64,000 nt of DNA from the NCBI GenBank assembly GCA_000739535.1, contig DF820463.1:763899-827898 (forward strand). Direction: 5' to 3'. The position numbers and the translations under genes are program-made. This DNA is from Candidatus Vecturithrix granuli (GTDB lineage Bacteria > Moduliflexota > Moduliflexia > Moduliflexales > Moduliflexaceae). How positions within the stretch are numbered: the stretch's first letter is position 1; each line of letters opens with the position of its first letter. Positions 1,894 to 62,327 of this stretch are shown piece by piece. Under the pieces are notes generated by a model. It had not been told where the DNA came from. It was given only the letters and a program-made list of their open reading frames with translations, and searched no databases.

Positions 1894-3429
1894 TCATATT
1901 TCTCGCTCACGTTTACGAAGATAGCTGCTGATGTCTTGAAACCGGAACTGGTCGAGCAACTGCCGGACGTGCTGCACAAAGGGCAGATACATGCTCTCAT
2001 CCTGTTCGATTTTAGCAAGGAGTTTTTTTATTTCCGTGATCTGACCGGCCTGGGCAAACATGATCAGCGCATCCAGCATATCGGCCGGCGGAAACATGAG
2101 CGGCGCGTGTTGTTCAGGCGTCGGCGTTGCGCGAGAATGCTCTGCGTCTGGAACTTCAAGCTGCCATTCAAGCTGCAAATGTTGCTGCAAGGCGCGAAAG
2201 AGTTGATCGGCCTGCACCGGTTTGGGCAGAAAATCATCGCAGCCGGCCGAGAGGCTTTGGGCGCGATCCCATTCTAACACACTGGCGGATACCGCAATAA
2301 TTTTGATCGCGCCAAACTCAGAGCGGCGGCGGATGCAGCGAATCACTTCGAATCCGTCTAAGTTCGGCATGACCAGATCCAACAAGATCAGATGCGGACG
2401 GAACGCTTCAAGCTGCTGCAGCGCGTCATGCCCATCTGTGGCTTCGCAAGTCTGAAATCCGAGGGGGATCAGCAACCCTGTGAGCACATGGCGATTTTCC
2501 GGTTGATCATCCACGATTAAGAGACGCTGCGGCGGACCTTTATACCCGACGATCTTCCGAGGGGAAGGATACCCTGGTTGAACATCAGGCGCGGCTTCCG
2601 GCAAAGGCAGCTCAAGCCGAAAGACTGCGCCCTGTTCGACTGGGCTGCGAACCGTGAGGTCGCCGTGCATCAGACGCGCTAATTGACGGCTGATCGCCAA
2701 TCCAAGTCCTGCGCCCTCGGCAGCCTGACGGTCGCGGCGCAGTTGGTAAAAGGGTTCGAAAATATGCTCCAACTTCTCAGTCGGGATGCCGGGGCCGGTG
2801 TCGGCAACCTCAAAACATATTAATTGACACGTGGCAATTGATAATTGATCATTGTCAATTAATGTAGCCCGCAGCGTCACCTGCCCCTGCGCCGTAAATT
2901 TAATGGCGTTATTTAACAGGTTCAACAGGATTTGGCGCAGGCGTTTTTCATCACCCAATATCACAGAGGGTAAATTCTCGGCAAATTCAGAGTTGAGCCG
3001 CAATCCTTTCTGCTGCGCTCGTATTTGTACCAGAGTCATGAGATTACGCAGAAATGCGGTCAAATGAAAAGGTGATTCTGTCAGCGCGATTGTGCGGGCT
3101 TCGATTTTGGCAAGGTCGAGAATATCATTGATCATGTCCAACAAATGTTCGCCGCTGTGATGAATCACGGCGATCCCCTCTTGCTGATCCGGTTTCAGCC
3201 GGCGATCTCGTTTGAAAATCTGAGTATAGCCCAGAATCGCGTTTAAGGGAGTGCGCAACTCATGGCTCATGTTGGAGAGAAAGTCGCTTTTGGCCTGACT
3301 CGCCAGTTCGGCCTGTTCTTTGGCCTGGGCTAATTCCCGGGTGCGTTCCTGCACTAAGGCTTCCAGGACGCGATTACGGCGTTCGATCGCGCTTATGCGT
3401 CCGCGATAGCCCGTGTATGCGCCGATCAT
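1894..3429 (-). CDS. Hybrid histidine kinase, cytoplasmic half (HisKA, HATPase, receiver)
   Basis: Order: end of a membrane segment, coiled coil (residues 15-45), HisKA with phospho-acceptor His56 in NMSHELRTPLN, HATPase with N-box LLNLLNNAIKF and G-box GAGLGLAIS, receiver with Asp in LILLDLVMP, and a C-terminal helical tail. It has no initiation signal of its own. The ATG at 3429 lies inside a hydrophobic stretch with no Shine-Dalgarno. The same frame runs upstream through 12 sense codons to a TAA at 3466-3468 and then into the propeller sensor at 3466-5829. Together they would form one sensor kinase. Residues 190-204 (LIDNDQLSIATCQLI) are encoded by a palindromic AT-rich repeat inserted in the ATPase domain. 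Confidence 0.85.
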   Translation of the reverse strand: MIGAYTGYRGRISAIERRNRVLEALVQERTRELAQAKEQAELASQAKSDFLSNMSHELRTPLNAILGYTQIFKRDRRLKPDQQEGIAVIHHSGEHLLDMINDILDLAKIEARTIALTESPFHLTAFLRNLMTLVQIRAQQKGLRLNSEFAENLPSVILGDEKRLRQILLNLLNNAIKFTAQGQVTLRATLIDNDQLSIATCQLICFEVADTGPGIPTEKLEHIFEPFYQLRRDRQAAEGAGLGLAISRQLARLMHGDLTVRSPVEQGAVFRLELPLPEAAPDVQPGYPSPRKIVGYKGPPQRLLIVDDQPENRHVLTGLLIPLGFQTCEATDGHDALQQLEAFRPHLILLDLVMPNLDGFEVIRCIRRRSEFGAIKIIAVSASVLEWDRAQSLSAGCDDFLPKPVQADQLFRALQQHLQLEWQLEVPDAEHSRATPTPEQHAPLMFPPADMLDALIMFAQAGQITEIKKLLAKIEQDESMYLPFVQHVRQLLDQFRFQDISSYLRKREREI

Positions 3430-10240: not shown

Positions 10241-10346
10241 CAAAATTATCTGCGCATTTTACCACGAAGACACAAAGACACGAAGTTGTTCTTCAGGCTG
10301 TTCTTCGTGTCTTCGTGTCTTCGTGGTAAAATAAAAATAATTTTGT
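10241..10346. repeat. Octad-repeat palindrome between divergent genes
   Basis: Arms 10256-10285 and 10303-10332 (30 bp, one mismatch) are built from the 8-bp word CACGAAGA or CACAAAGA in three copies. The pairing extends outward to CAAAATTAT (from about 10240) and ATAATTTTG. A smaller hairpin with CCCAGG and CCTGGG lies at about 10205-10240. The remaining intergenic DNA up to 10610 is AT-rich and presumably carries the promoter of the kinase gene, but no confident -35/-10 pair was found. Confidence 0.85.
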
Positions 10347-10610: not shown

Positions 10611-13600
10611 ATGCGCGTTTCGATTCGCACAAAATTGCTGGTGATCTGTATCGCCTTAGTGCTGTTGACAACCACAGGCATCTCGATTACCTATTACGTG
10701 CTGACCCGGCAGGATAAGCAGCGCGCCTCGCGCCAGCAGATTCAAATTGCCTTCAATATTATCCTCAATGATATTACGAAACGGATCAACACCTACACCG
10801 TGAGCGTGCGCCAGTTTTTACAAGAAAACGTGACCCTGCTCTGGGCCACTTACACCTATAGCCTGGATGACAGCGAAGAAGGCACGATTAAATTTTTGTT
10901 TGATCATTTTGCCGACGTGTCTGCGGAACTCAAACAGTTCGGACGGGTCGCCCTGGCAGATCGGGTGATGCTGTATGGCGCGAATAAGCGGCTGTTGGTG
11001 GTATATCAGCGCCTCAATGGTTATGAAACCAGGGGAGGTTACCTGGTTTCAGCCGCGGAAGGCAATAGATATCTTCCAATGGATAATCTTTCCGTGCAGG
11101 CCGAAATTACCTTTAGACGCAATAATTTAGCCATTCATGCCCAAAATACTGAATTACCGGATACGCCGTTTCCGCAGGGCGTCAGCGCTGTGTATGCCGG
11201 CGATGTTCCGGATGTGATTTCTGTCGGCCTGTTCCGGCTGCACCAGCAACTGGGCATCCGCGTAGTTGCCCCGATCTATCGCCGCGATCAGGTGCTGGGA
11301 ATTCTGGTTGGCGAAACTTTTTTTACCCAGGACATGATCGAAGAATATGCGTCGCTGAGCAAAACAGCCATCAACTTCTTTTCCGGCAATACGTTAAGTA
11401 TCGGTACCCTGGCGGTCCAATCCGAATTGACTCTGCTTGCCTCGGAACAGGAAATTCGCTGTCAGGATATGCTCAAAACCCGTCAAAGCATCGGCCTCAC
11501 GGCTATTCCTATCACCTTAGAAGATCAGAAATATTATCAGGGGCAGTGTACGCTCAACAATGGACGCGAAACTCTTGGCGCAATTACCGTGAACCTTTCT
11601 CAAGAAATCGAGCAGCAGGAAATTGCCAAAATTGTCAAAGCGGTGTCCACAATTTCAGGGGTTGGCATTCTCATCTGCGTGGTGCTTGTTTCCGGCGTTC
11701 TGGTGCCAAGATTTACCGGGCCGATCATCACTTTAACGAACGCAGCTCTGCGCATGGCGCAAGGAGATTTGAACCAGAAGATTGACACCAGCGGTCAGGA
11801 TGAATTAGGCACGCTCGCCAGGAGCTTTGCCCACATGCGCGACGAAATTCAGCAGAAAATTGAGGAACTGCAGCTTATGAACACCGAGCTTGATCAACGG
11901 GTCGAAGAACGGACAGCCGAAGTGGTGCGCCAGAAGTATATTTTAGACACTTTTATGGAAACCGTGCCGGATCGCATTTACTTTAAAGACTGCCAGGGGC
12001 GCATTACCAGGGCAAACAAAGCTCATGCCAGCCGCATGGGAGTCCAGGATCCCTTACAAGAAATCGGGAAAACCGATTTTGATTTTTTCCCCCATGAGGA
12101 TGCGCAGCGGCGCTATGAACAAGAACAGGAGATTCTGCGCACGGGGATGCCGTTGATCGGCATGGAAGAACAACGCAAATGGCCTGACGGACATGAAGAA
12201 TGGTCACTTGTCACCAAGATGCCGCTGCGCAATGAGCATGGAGAGATTATTGGAACGTTTGGCGTCTCGCGTGACATTACGGAGTTGAAGCACACAGAAG
12301 ACGCGCTGCGCCATGCCAAGAACGCAGCTGAAGCGGCGAACCGCGCCAAAAGTGAATTTCTCGCGAATATGAGTCACGAACTGCGTACTCCGCTCAATGT
12401 GATCCTGGGGCTGACGCAGATTATGACGCGCAATCCGCAAATTTTACAAGAAGAACGGGAAAATCTCGATATCATTCATCACAGCGGCGAACATTTGCTC
12501 ATGCTCATTAATAACGTGCTGGATCTGTCGAAGATTGAAGCGGGGCGTATCCCGATCAATGAGCAAGGGATTGATTTGTTTCGCCTGCTCGATGAATTGA
12601 AAGAGATGTTTGCGGTTAAGGCCGCTCCGAAACAGTTAGACCTGCTGTTTGACTATGCTGAGGATGTGCCGCAATATGTGCGCCTTGACGCCGGAAAATT
12701 GCGGCAGGTCTTGATTAATCTGCTCAATAATGCCGTAAAATTTACGGAAGCGGGCGGAGTGACGGTGAGAGTGAAGAAAGTATTCAGTAATCAGTATTCA
12801 GGAACCAGTAATCAGCATTCAATATCCAGTGAACAAGGTACGACTGATCACTGTTTACTGAATACTGAACACTGTTTACTGTCCTTTGAAATCGAAGATT
12901 CTGGGCCGGGCATTGCGCCTGAAGAGATGGCGATATTATTTGAAGCGTTCGCCCAGACCCAAACCGGTCGCAATGCGCAGGAGGGGACCGGGCTGGGACT
13001 GGCGATCAGTCAAAAATTCGTGCAATTGCTGGGTGGAACAATTGCGGTCGAGAGCGAATTACAGCATGGAACGACCTTTACCTTTACCATTCCGGTCACG
13101 CTTGCCAATGCGAGCGATGTCGTTTCATCGGCGGTCACGCAGCGTGTCATTGCTCTGCAACCCGATCAGCCGCGCTATCGGATTCTGGTGGTGGATGACA
13201 ATCCCCATAATCGCCGTTTGCTCGTCAAACTCCTTGTGCCCCTGGGTTTTGATGTGCGCGAAGCCGAAAACGGTCAGGATGGCATCCGACTGTGGACGGA
13301 ATTTGAGCCGCATCTCATCTGGATGGACCTCCGTATGCCAGGGATCGATGGTTATGAAGCTATCAGGAGAATTCGGAGTGAGGAATCAGGAATGAGGAAT
13401 GAAGAGAACGTTTCACTTCCAGATTCCAGAATCCAGAATCCTCATTGCATTATCATTGCCCTGACAGCAAGCAGTTTTGAGGATGAACGCGAACATGTAC
13501 TGGCCGCAGGCTGCGATGATTTTTTACGTAAACCCTTCCGGGAAACCGAAATTTTTGACTTGCTGCATACCTATCTCGGAATTTGCTATGTGTATGAAGA

Positions 13601-15924: not shown

Positions 15925-16004
15925 CCGGAGTGCGAAAGTTCTACTTTCGCGCGTGTTCATGGGCGAAAGTAAATACGCGCGAAAGTAGAACTTTTGCACT
16001 CCGG
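15925..16004. repeat. Palindrome with CCGGAGTGC ends
   Basis: 30-bp arms (15925-15954, 15975-16004) with one mismatch and a 20-base loop. Each arm contains GAAAGTTCTACTTTC, itself self-complementary. The outer GGAGTGC end is shared with the elements at 7464 and 50796. Confidence 0.9.
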
Positions 16005-28860: not shown

Positions 28861-29663
28861 AAAGAAAATGGATCGATAGAATCTGCTGGGTCGGATTTGT
28901 GCTGATCGCGATCTTTGCACTTGCCCCTCTTTTATGGGGATTACGAACGTCCCTTACGCCGAATACGGAACTGTCGCTGTTTCCGAAACACTTGACGCTG
29001 GAGCATTACCGCAATATTTTTTCACGTCCGCTCTTTTTGTTGTATATCAAAAATACCCTGCTTGTGGCCTTAGCAGCGATTGCAGTCACATTGCCCATCG
29101 GAATGATGGGCGGTTATGCTCTGGCGCGTTATCATTTTCCAGGCAAAAATTTGAGTTTTGCCTTAATGATTCTACCACTGCTGCCGCCTATCGCCATTCT
29201 TGTGCCGCTGGTGTCCTACATCAATCGCATGGGCATCTACGATACCTTGTTTGCGGTCATGATGGTCACGGTCGTGTTTAATCTGCCTTTTGCGGTGTGG
29301 ATGTTGCGCAATTTTATCATGGCGACGCCCGTCGCGATTGAAGAAAGCGCGCTGATCGACGGCTGTTCACCCTTCGGCGTCTTGTGGCGGATTGTGCTGC
29401 CTTCTATTTTTCCGGGAGTCATCGCCGTGTCAGTATTTATCTTCATTAACAGTTGGAACGGCTACTTATTGGCCTTTGCGCTGATTGCAAGTCCGCAAAA
29501 ACGAGTGCTTTCGCAGGCTATTCTTGCGTTTATAGGCGCCTGGGGCACAGATTGGGGCGGTTTGAGCGCGGTTGGCATTCTGGCCCTGATTCCACCAGTC
29601 GCTCTGTTCGTACTCTTTCAACGCTGGTTTATTGCAGGTATTGTCGGGCAACAATTAAAGTGA
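28857..29663 (+). CDS. ABC sugar permease, MalG/UgpE type
   Basis: 268 residues, six membrane helices, EAA loop EESALIDGCSPFGVLWRIV. It is translationally coupled to the preceding permease by the ATGA overlap. It completes the membrane part of the family-1 importer. It is followed by a palindrome (29659-29765) that fills the gap before the mannosidase gene. Confidence 0.92.
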   Translation: MKRKWIDRICWVGFVLIAIFALAPLLWGLRTSLTPNTELSLFPKHLTLEHYRNIFSRPLFLLYIKNTLLVALAAIAVTLPIGMMGGYALARYHFPGKNLSFALMILPLLPPIAILVPLVSYINRMGIYDTLFAVMMVTVVFNLPFAVWMLRNFIMATPVAIEESALIDGCSPFGVLWRIVLPSIFPGVIAVSVFIFINSWNGYLLAFALIASPQKRVLSQAILAFIGAWGTDWGGLSAVGILALIPPVALFVLFQRWFIAGIVGQQLK

Positions 29664-29765
29664 CTAAAGGGACTCAGGGGACTCAAGGGGCTAAAGGGAC
29701 TAAACCTGGAAATGCTTTAAACTTTCGTCACTTTAGTCCCTTCAGTCCTTTTAGTCCGTTGATTC
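29659..29765. repeat. Nonad-repeat palindrome between permease and mannosidase genes
   Basis: The left half repeats a 9-bp word of the form GGGACTAAA about five times. The right half repeats its complement, TTTAGTCCC, about four times. It begins at the permease stop and ends one base before the ATG at 29767, which therefore has no ordinary Shine-Dalgarno. Confidence 0.85.
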
Positions 29766-50682: not shown

Positions 50683-50745
50683 AGTCATCTTCAGTCATCA
50701 GTCGTCAGTATTCTGACTGATGACTGGTCACTGATGACTGAATTT
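50683..50745. repeat. Heptad-repeat palindrome upstream of rpe
   Basis: CAGTCAT / CAGTCGT / CAGTATT words face CTGACTG and ATGACTG words. It lies directly upstream of the rpe start and is of the same type as the in-gene repeat at 12780-12881. Confidence 0.75.
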
Positions 50746-57200: not shown

Positions 57201-58497
57201 CGGCAGGCGCGATTACCCGCTGTGAAGCGTTCCTTGATAGTTTGGAAAATGTGCGGGATCGTCAATATCCGCGCTATGACCGCACATTCAAACAAGGCCG
57301 GACAGATTTGGCCGGACGAACCATGTATATTCCTTACATGGGCGATCATGCCTACGTCCTGGCTGCCGCGATTCGCGGGTTAGGAATTCCCGCTGAGGTC
57401 TTCGGGGTTTCTGATGAAGAAAGCGTTGAATACGGACGAAAATATACGACCGGCAAAGAATGTTATCCGTTGATCGTCACGACCGGGGATATGATTAAGA
57501 AAGTCAACGAACCGGGTTTTGATCCGAGTAAGGCGATTTTCTTTATGCCATCCGGAACAGGCCCCTGCCGTTTTGGACAGTACAACATGTTTCAGCGCCT
57601 GGTCATGCAGGAACTTGGGCATGATATTCCGATCATGGCCCCCAATCAGGATTCCAGTTTTTATAAGGAACTTGGGGCTGTCGGGAAAAATATTTCAAAA
57701 ATCGGCTGGATGGCAATGGTCGGCGGCGATATTCTGTACAAAGCCCTGTTCGATACGCGGCCTTATGAGGTCAATAAGGGAGAAACGCTTGCCGTTTATC
57801 AACGTTCCTTGCAACGGCTGAGCGATGCGCTCGAATTCGGAGGAAATGCGTATCAGTCCATGGAACAAAGCGCGGCAGATTTCAGAACGATCAAGGTTGA
57901 TAAATCGCAGAAAAAACCGACCATAGGAATTGTCGGTGAAATTTATGTCCGTACTCACGGCTTCTGTAACGACTCGATTATTGATAAAGTTGAAGCTTTG
58001 GGTGGAACGGTCTGGCTGGCGCCCTTGATGGAATGGATTTACTACACGAATTATACCCGGATGCTCCATGCAAAGCAAAACAGAGAGTATTTTAAATATT
58101 TCCAGAACATGGTGGTCGAAAAAGCGCAAGTCATGATTGAACATAAGCTTGCTAAGCCGTTTCACGGCATTATTGACTATCTGGAAGAAACCAATACGCA
58201 TGGCATTCTGAAATATGCGGATCAGTATGTTGACCGCAGTTTTGAAGGGGAAACCGTGTTAAGTGTCGGCAAAACGATTGATTATTATCATCAGGGCTTG
58301 AGCGGCGTGATTAATGTGATGCCCTTCGGCTGCATGCCCGGCACGATTGTCACCGCGCTTTTAAAGAAAATTCGGGAAGACTACGAGAATCTCCCGGCGA
58401 TTTCACTTGCTTACGACGGAACACAGCATGCCGGAACGGACACCCGCCTGGAAGCCTTTATGCACCAGGTAAAACAGTATATGAATATTCGAAATAA

Positions 58498-58501
<4 letters not shown>
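54272..58501 (+). CDS. Giant acyl-CoA dehydratase activase, two BadF/HgdC ATPase domains plus DUF2229/HgdB-like region
   Basis: 1409 residues. Two HgdC-type ASKHA ATPase domains (about 8-285 and 320-590) each start with GIDIGSVSVDAL or GVDVGSISTNVV. Each has both Cys that bridge the 4Fe-4S cluster of a dimeric activator (Cys138/Cys178 and Cys456/Cys496). A Cys-rich knot (FECQHCSNLCEIHE) leads into DUF2229 and an HgdB-like C-terminal half. Such proteins use ATP to inject low-potential electrons into 2-hydroxyacyl-CoA dehydratases or benzoyl-CoA-type reductases. No dehydratase subunits adjoin. The ATG at 54272 is chosen; upstream TTG codons are possible starts. Confidence 0.88.
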
Positions 58502-59931
<1,430 letters not shown>

Positions 59932-59972: not shown

Positions 59973-60049
59973 TTTCTCGCAAAGCCCGCAAAGCTCGCAA
60001 AGAATGGATATTCAAAAGCTTTGTGTCTTTGCGGGCTTTGCGAGAGAAA
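59973..60049. repeat. CGCAAAG-type palindrome between purA and the NagA-like gene
   Basis: The left arm starts with TTTCTCGCAAAGCCCGCAAAG and the right arm ends with CTTTGCGGGCTTTGCGAGA. The words repeat every 8-9 bp. It is the same family as 13853-13963. Confidence 0.88.
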
Positions 60050-62059: not shown

Positions 62060-62077
62060 AATTTCCTCCTGTGAAAA

Positions 62078-62140
62078 TGTAGCGCGAAACTCCAGTTTCG
62101 CGTATCATTGATAGCCGCGAAACTGGAGTTTCGCGCTACA
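62078..62140. repeat. TGTAGCG palindrome, copy 1
   Basis: Perfect 25-bp arms (62078-62102, 62116-62140). Each arm contains CGCGAAACTCCAGTTTCGCG, itself a 9-bp hairpin. It lies upstream of nagB. Confidence 0.95.
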
Positions 62141-62216
62141 TCCATCTTCCCCTGACCATAAAATTTTTATTCGCCGTGGTGTGTTTGCCAAAACGAATGA
62201 ATAACTCCTGTGAAAC

Positions 62217-62281
62217 TGTAGCGCGAAACTCCAGTTTCGCGCACCAGTAATACGGCCGCGAAACTGGAGTTTCGCGCTACA
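62217..62281. repeat. TGTAGCG palindrome, copy 2
   Basis: The same arms as copy 1 (62217-62241, 62257-62281) with a different loop. The left flank CTCCTGTGAAA is shared with copy 1, where it overlaps the nagB ribosome site. This points to duplication of a segment rather than two independent insertions. The rest of 62060-62327 has no gene. Confidence 0.95.
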
Positions 62282-62327
62282 TCTTGTTTTCATTGCGCCG
62301 GGTGAGCCTACGCTCATGGCAACTTCT

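Follow-up and report, generated by a model that had tools for sequence, protein, structure and literature searches.

The window analysed here, a stretch of 64,000 nt from Candidatus Vecturithrix granuli, lies on a 1.15 Mb contig of a draft genome with an estimated contamination of 10.75%. Its features are listed in Table 1. The host gene encodes a hybrid histidine kinase, identified as such by its HisKA and HATPase_c domains and by a receiver domain with phospho-Asp and Lys. The phosphorylation site Asp906 and a later Lys had been expected to be intact, and this applies to both residues, the latter being Lys974.

Table 1 Coordinates of the host gene, its inserts and related features in the window
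Feature	Position	Strand	Basis
Host gene, hybrid histidine kinase, 1078 aa	10611..13847	+	ORF; Pfam: HAMP, PAS, HisKA, HATPase_c, receiver
In-frame insert, codons 922-946 RSEESGMRNEENVSLPDSRIQNPHC, receiver α3-β4 loop	13374..13448	+	Sequence, homologue alignment, shuffles, AlphaFold
Insert left arm, four tandem heptads GGAGTGA GGAATCA GGAATGA GGAATGA	13375..13402	+	Sequence, TRF
Insert right arm, TTCCAGA-type heptads TTCCAGA TTCCAGA ATCCAGA ATCC	about 13416..13441	+	Sequence, TRF, hairpin scoring
Second in-frame heptad palindrome of the host gene, CAGTAWT heptads, HATPase_c β-hairpin loop before the DxGxGI box	12774..12885, arms 12774-12815 / 12844-12885	+	Hairpin, shuffles, RNA fold
HATPase loop of another histidine kinase	2785..2922	-	Hairpin p 0.005
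Heptad array (CAATTGATAATTGATCATTG) inside this HATPase loop	2825-2854	-	Lag-7 scan
Intergenic palindrome of the related GGAGTGC family, also in frame in paralogue HATPase loops	15925..16004	.	Pattern matches
Heptad palindrome with units TCAGTMR / TGACTGA, built like the receiver insert	50688..50741	.	Lag-7 score 21

The original prediction of a 75-bp heptad palindrome, in frame in the receiver domain, is borne out by the sequence, by TRF and by the lag-7 and hairpin shuffles. The insert runs from GGAATSA-like heptads through a short spacer to TTCCAGA-like heptads. A period of 7 is called by TRF for both arms, and the lag-7 score is 20, whereas each remaining lag in the range 3-12 scores 2-4. 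In the best hairpin without gaps, 13375-13400 is paired with 13423-13448; its net score of 12 is reached by 3 of 1000 dinucleotide shuffles (mean 6.9, sd 1.17) and by 1 of 1000 codon shuffles (mean 6.4). This hairpin is imperfect, with 19 of 26 positions paired (about 73%). A perfect palindrome was ruled out, as the heptads of the two arms match in their GGAAT/ATTCC core alone. The predicted RNA fold of positions 13371-13451 has a z-score of -3.3 (0/200 shuffles), and the signal is diluted to -1.8 when 10 nt more are included on each side. An Rfam match for the insert RNA was not found.

The receiver domain was aligned with its homologues and modelled with AlphaFold; the insert lies between α3 and β4, in agreement with the position first given for it, between the helix ending YEAIRRI and the strand IIIALTA. 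The distance from the DxxMP to the xIxALTA motif is 48 residues in the host kinase, compared with a modal 32 among homologues. Judged from this alignment, the net gain is about 16 residues and not the 25 originally given, because a native loop of about 9 residues accommodates the insert or is partly replaced by it. In the multiple alignment, the inserted residues are common to none of the homologues; the refuting case named beforehand, palindrome-free orthologues that carry the 25 residues, was thus not observed. A search of the 8.4 Mb genome with the 101-nt element returned the self match and no second copy. A close orthologue of the host gene was likewise not found, the same-family genome reaching only 46-48% identity, so no empty site is demonstrable at this locus.

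The second insert of the host gene is stronger than the one in the receiver domain, with a hairpin score of 24 (0/1000 shuffles) and an RNA z-score of -4.6. Heptad palindromes occupy the same two loops in a paralogue from the same genome (C21:170470-172845), and their units, GGAATGA in the HATPase loop and GGCAAAA/CCTTTNN in the receiver loop, are unrelated to those of the host gene. HATPase-loop heptads are also present in the paralogues C21:423940, C21:295926 and C21:1116656. The view that two inserts in one gene are no coincidence is thus upheld insofar as both loops are recurrent acceptor sites, the paralogue C21:170470-172845 holding unrelated palindromic heptads in both; the presence of two inserts in the same gene can be explained with no special role for it. 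The HATPase loops at L090 (C21:424943-426841) and L126 (C14:242812-244053) resemble decayed members of the GGAGTGC family and of the PSWEGQGVG palindrome family. A short receiver loop (C21:834751, p 0.005) was judged a chance hit, since it carries no insert.

One rival account of the receiver insert is ordinary loop-length variation combined with a chance repeat. The length of the α3-β4 loop does vary naturally among homologues, but the lag-7 and hairpin signals lie far above the shuffles and the same architecture recurs at both loops. This account is refuted and retains next to no probability.

The distribution of such elements was surveyed in detail in 25% of the genome, comprising 2.1 Mb with 1,411 genes of our own calling and 1.64 Mb of called coding sequence; the loop survey covered motif-matched kinases. 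Five in-gene lag-7 arrays with a score ≥13 are present in the 1.64 Mb of coding sequence, and all five are located in histidine kinases, four in the HATPase loop and one in the receiver loop of the host gene. At a score ≥11, 6/8 lag-7 arrays fall into the two loops, compared with 0/17 arrays at lags 4, 5, 8, 10 and 11 (Fisher p 1.6e-4). The two matched loop classes make up 0.15% of the coding sequence; given score thresholds set after seeing the data and our own gene calls, the tiny binomial values that result mean 'far from chance' and are not exact. Insertions of at least 8 residues cluster at model positions 75-90 of the HATPase domain and 71-73 of the receiver domain, which correspond to the same two loops, in this genome as well as in a cyanobacterial set. 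Among the long HATPase loops (≥32 residues) of this genome, 8/14 are palindromic at p<0.01, compared with 0/14 control windows of equal length from the same genes. Periodicity at lag 7 exceeds codon shuffles in 8/14 of these loops; for each of the other lags between 4 and 12, this is the case in one loop at most. In the cyanobacterial long loops, 7/29 are palindromic compared with 0/29 controls, and lag-7 enrichment over codon shuffles is found in 13/29; short loops are not enriched.

Heptad arrays are found throughout the genome with many differing units, and they are mostly intergenic. By location, 16 lag-7 arrays are intergenic, 7 lie at gene edges and 6 inside genes, and 13 of the 16 intergenic arrays form a hairpin beyond all 30 shuffles. 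The in-gene share is 6/29 at lag 7 vs 1/43 at lags 8-10 (p 0.015).

The HisKA-HATPase-receiver part of the host kinase was modelled with AlphaFold from 17 sequences (mean pLDDT 79, pTM 0.54). In the model, residues 157-180, which make up the HATPase insert, form a disordered segment between strands 145-153 and 183-192. For the receiver insert (model 351-375), α3 is extended to residue 361, followed by a low-confidence loop (362-375) and β4 (376-381). The cores of both domains are predicted to be kept, and the best PDB matches are histidine kinases. In the alignment with the solved receiver 7p8e, the latter has a similarly long loop at the α3-β4 site.

Both inserts keep the reading frame, being multiples of three and free of stops only in the frame that is used; for the receiver insert, each of the other two forward frames holds at least one TGA. 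Because 7 leaves a remainder of 1 on division by 3, a long heptad array presents the same seven codons in each frame, so that its frame does not decide whether it is open or closed. In the GGAATGA heptads of the two loops that bear them, TGA is present at 0/3 in-phase and at 5/6 off-phase positions (p 0.048), and this phase bias weakly suggests that the inserts are translated. These observations bear on a possible role at the RNA level, in which the mRNA hairpin would pause ribosomes or be skipped by programmed bypassing, leaving the residues absent from the protein. Stable hairpins are indeed predicted for both inserts (z -4.6 and -3.3), but the keeping of the frame, the missing in-phase TGA, which suggests that the insert is read, and the missing Rfam match all argue against such a role, which is considered very improbable.

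Hairpins are abundant in the genome. Those with arms of at least 20 nt number 353 in 2.1 Mb, compared with 4 in a 1.15 Mb Markov control, and 10 of the 353 are placed in coding sequence by the criteria used here. The core pattern of the GGAGTGC palindrome family has 199+207 matches genome-wide (reversed-pattern control: 0). One copy of this family, a palindrome of 52 nt that is 98% identical to intergenic copies, is found in frame in the HATPase loop of the paralogue C6:59957-61465, and the same family adjoins a Y1_Tnp gene (L178) on both sides. As read from these sequences, palindromic elements evidently do enter the HATPase loop, because the copy in the C6 loop is 98% identical to an intergenic family that flanks Y1_Tnp. 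In total, the genome holds 12 Y1_Tnp matches, two of which have palindromes on either side. These two genes, L178:4053-4922 and L180:3469-4401, lie between palindromes of a different family each (the GGAGTGCGAAAG family and the TGTACCGCGAA family) and resemble REPtrons. Such REPtron-like units probably feed the high-copy palindromes of the genome. Around the 12 Y1_Tnp matches, no heptad array was seen up to a distance of 1.5 kb.

Among cyanobacteria, three orthologues (L028, L031 and L032) share 88-89% protein identity, and the flanks of their HATPase loop are well conserved. The loop itself is occupied by CAATTAC heptads, together with a nested element, or else by a heptad palindrome of unrelated sequence, GAGCTGGG/CCCCTCTG. 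At this site, one element appears to have been replaced by another, or two independent insertions took place. The nested second element, FPGAAWER or FPGVRRER in the translated loop, is seen in the heptad insert of L031 and L032. In the Symploca locus L199, the receiver loops are coded by apparent heptads, and significance as palindromes was not reached. Two relatives from the same order and of one genus (G002/G003; L043, L044) have long HATPase loops that are weakly lag-7 (scores 7 and 9) and were left out of the counts. Gene exchange has been described among filamentous bacteria including cyanobacteria (PMC6390638). Inheritance of the inserts would not, however, account for differing elements at the same site.

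A different origin would be expansion in situ, in which loops free of length constraint grow heptads by replication slippage and hairpin-templated strand switching, with no mobile element involved. The heptad units do vary between sites, yet both arms match within each site; the receiver element has no dispersed copies; and the heptad arrays of the genome are of many sequences. Two observations look like insertion instead, namely the copy in the same loop of a paralogue, which is 98% identical to members of a dispersed palindrome family, and the wholesale replacement with a nested second element in the cyanobacterial orthologues. Expansion in situ is accordingly rated as the less likely origin, while keeping an appreciable chance of being correct.

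The reading that we consider likely is that small palindromic elements arrive at many places in the genome but persist within genes chiefly in tolerant kinase loops, where they form disordered surface loops. A small palindromic repeat element, a hairpin with arms of tandem heptads, would have entered the hybrid histidine kinase gene in frame, and its translation would give a surface loop, for the most part disordered, between α3 and β4 of the receiver domain. Elements of this kind would land or arise widely, in keeping with the intergenic position of nearly all of the many such hairpins in the genome, and would survive inside genes mainly if their length is divisible by three, no stop interrupts the frame and the protein is indifferent to a change at that site. 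The chief surviving sites here would be the HATPase β-hairpin loop before DxGxGI and the receiver α3-β4 loop of histidine kinases. The sequences themselves show the element, its in-frame status, the acceptor sites shared with paralogues and cyanobacterial orthologues, which hold unrelated palindromes there, and a recent in-frame copy of a high-copy family at the HATPase site. The translated loop is presumably tolerated as neutral, survival would be a matter of purifying filtering with no targeting enzyme, and the heptad class may stem from transposition linked to hairpins, or else from template switching and slippage.

The near-exclusive location of the heptads in kinases exceeds what simple tolerance predicts, because other genes too have flexible linkers, and this counts against the reading just given. 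Non-heptad palindromes are also found in frame in other genes (L136:4389-4646, L151:18292-18373, L160:9021-9121, L181:3492-3542 and L089:10971-11042), with peptides such as PFDSAPFDSA/GVEGRGVEG repeats, LECQSSALAAKAELWHS and LPTPCPSQEG...PSWEGQGVG. The kinase loops are therefore not the sole tolerant sites, and in-frame capture extends beyond kinases for other families.

The kinase bias is also what would be expected if the loops were selected to vary, with palindromes as raw material, for the avoidance of cross-talk or for partner contacts in paralogous kinases. Such functional diversification would agree with heptads occurring almost exclusively in histidine-kinase loops and with both loops being struck in one protein, in two paralogues. 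The inserts are predicted to be disordered, however, and their sequences are unrelated among paralogues. Moreover, the α3-β4 end of the receiver domain and the turn of the HATPase hairpin point away from the phosphotransfer face. We regard this explanation as unlikely. Slightly less likely still is a preference for these loops as targets, with a hairpin-copying process that repeatedly seeds and replaces heptad palindromes at both loops across phyla, the turnover diversifying sensor kinases.

To our knowledge, palindromic DNA in frame inside genes is mainly known from Rickettsia. The Rickettsia palindromic elements (RPEs) are palindromes located in frame inside the genes of apparently working proteins (PMC10969869, PMC3733652). 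The receiver insert resembles them as a palindromic hairpin, in frame in the open reading frame of an otherwise intact protein. RPEs differ in forming conserved multi-copy families of ~150 bp with a conserved peptide, whereas the receiver element is single-copy, its arms are heptad arrays and the peptides vary from loop to loop. The insert works like an RPE and is not a member of the group, because it was not found to be multi-copy.

REP elements with RAYT/TnpA-REP (Y1) transposases are short palindromes that are mostly intergenic and sometimes inside open reading frames (PMC3733652). The present genome is similar in its palindrome-flanked Y1_Tnp matches and in the REP-like family found in frame in a histidine kinase loop. 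The heptad element differs in that it is not high-copy, in contrast to the separate GGAGTGC family, and has no linked Y1 gene in the 12 regions, the two flanked Y1 genes being associated with other palindrome families. Neither GTAG nor CGTC, the tetramers that tag REPs at the foot of the stem, is present on the given strand of 13371-13451.

Heptamer repeats such as TAACTGA of Beggiatoaceae and the heptanucleotide repeats of cyanobacteria (STRR) and Xanthomonas consist of tandem 7-nt units that are mostly intergenic and occasionally in open reading frames (PMC4679880, PMC4692102). The heptads described here are likewise tandem and mostly intergenic. TAACTGA sets have one favoured unit in direct repeat (169 direct, one indirect), and the repeats of Beggiatoaceae and cyanobacteria lie mostly at gene edges (PMC4679880, PMC4692102). 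In contrast, the units vary here, the arms are inverted pairs that form a hairpin, and the elements lie inside folded domains and not at protein ends.

Events of the same kind are seen here in bacteria with large genomes that belong to distant groups, and they affect the same two structural loops in a single protein family, where different repeat elements replace one another. In sister genes, and in cyanobacteria too, these two kinase loops hold other palindromes, so that they act as recurrent hosts of small repeat elements, which come to form part of the protein. This represents a simple route from selfish DNA to new protein sequence, and an acceptor site of selfish DNA in proteins becomes directly testable. 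Odd low-complexity stretches in annotated histidine kinases may be explained by such inserts.

Small dispersed repeats of cyanobacteria were reportedly described by Elhai and colleagues in 2008 as small mobile repeats that insert into one another. The nested loop element of L031 and L032 looks like them, going by that description. In the window, further hairpins, whose arms consist of 9-mers or 8-mers in tandem, are located at 29656-29765, 58497-58616, 59975-60045 and 10256-10332 (GGGACTAAA, CGAAAGGGA, CGCAAAGCC and ACACGAAG); they are apparently intergenic and share the architecture of the heptads. At 62074-62285, four TGTAGCGCGAAACTCCAGTTTCGCG palindromes are clustered in alternating orientation, an arrangement that is BIME-like.
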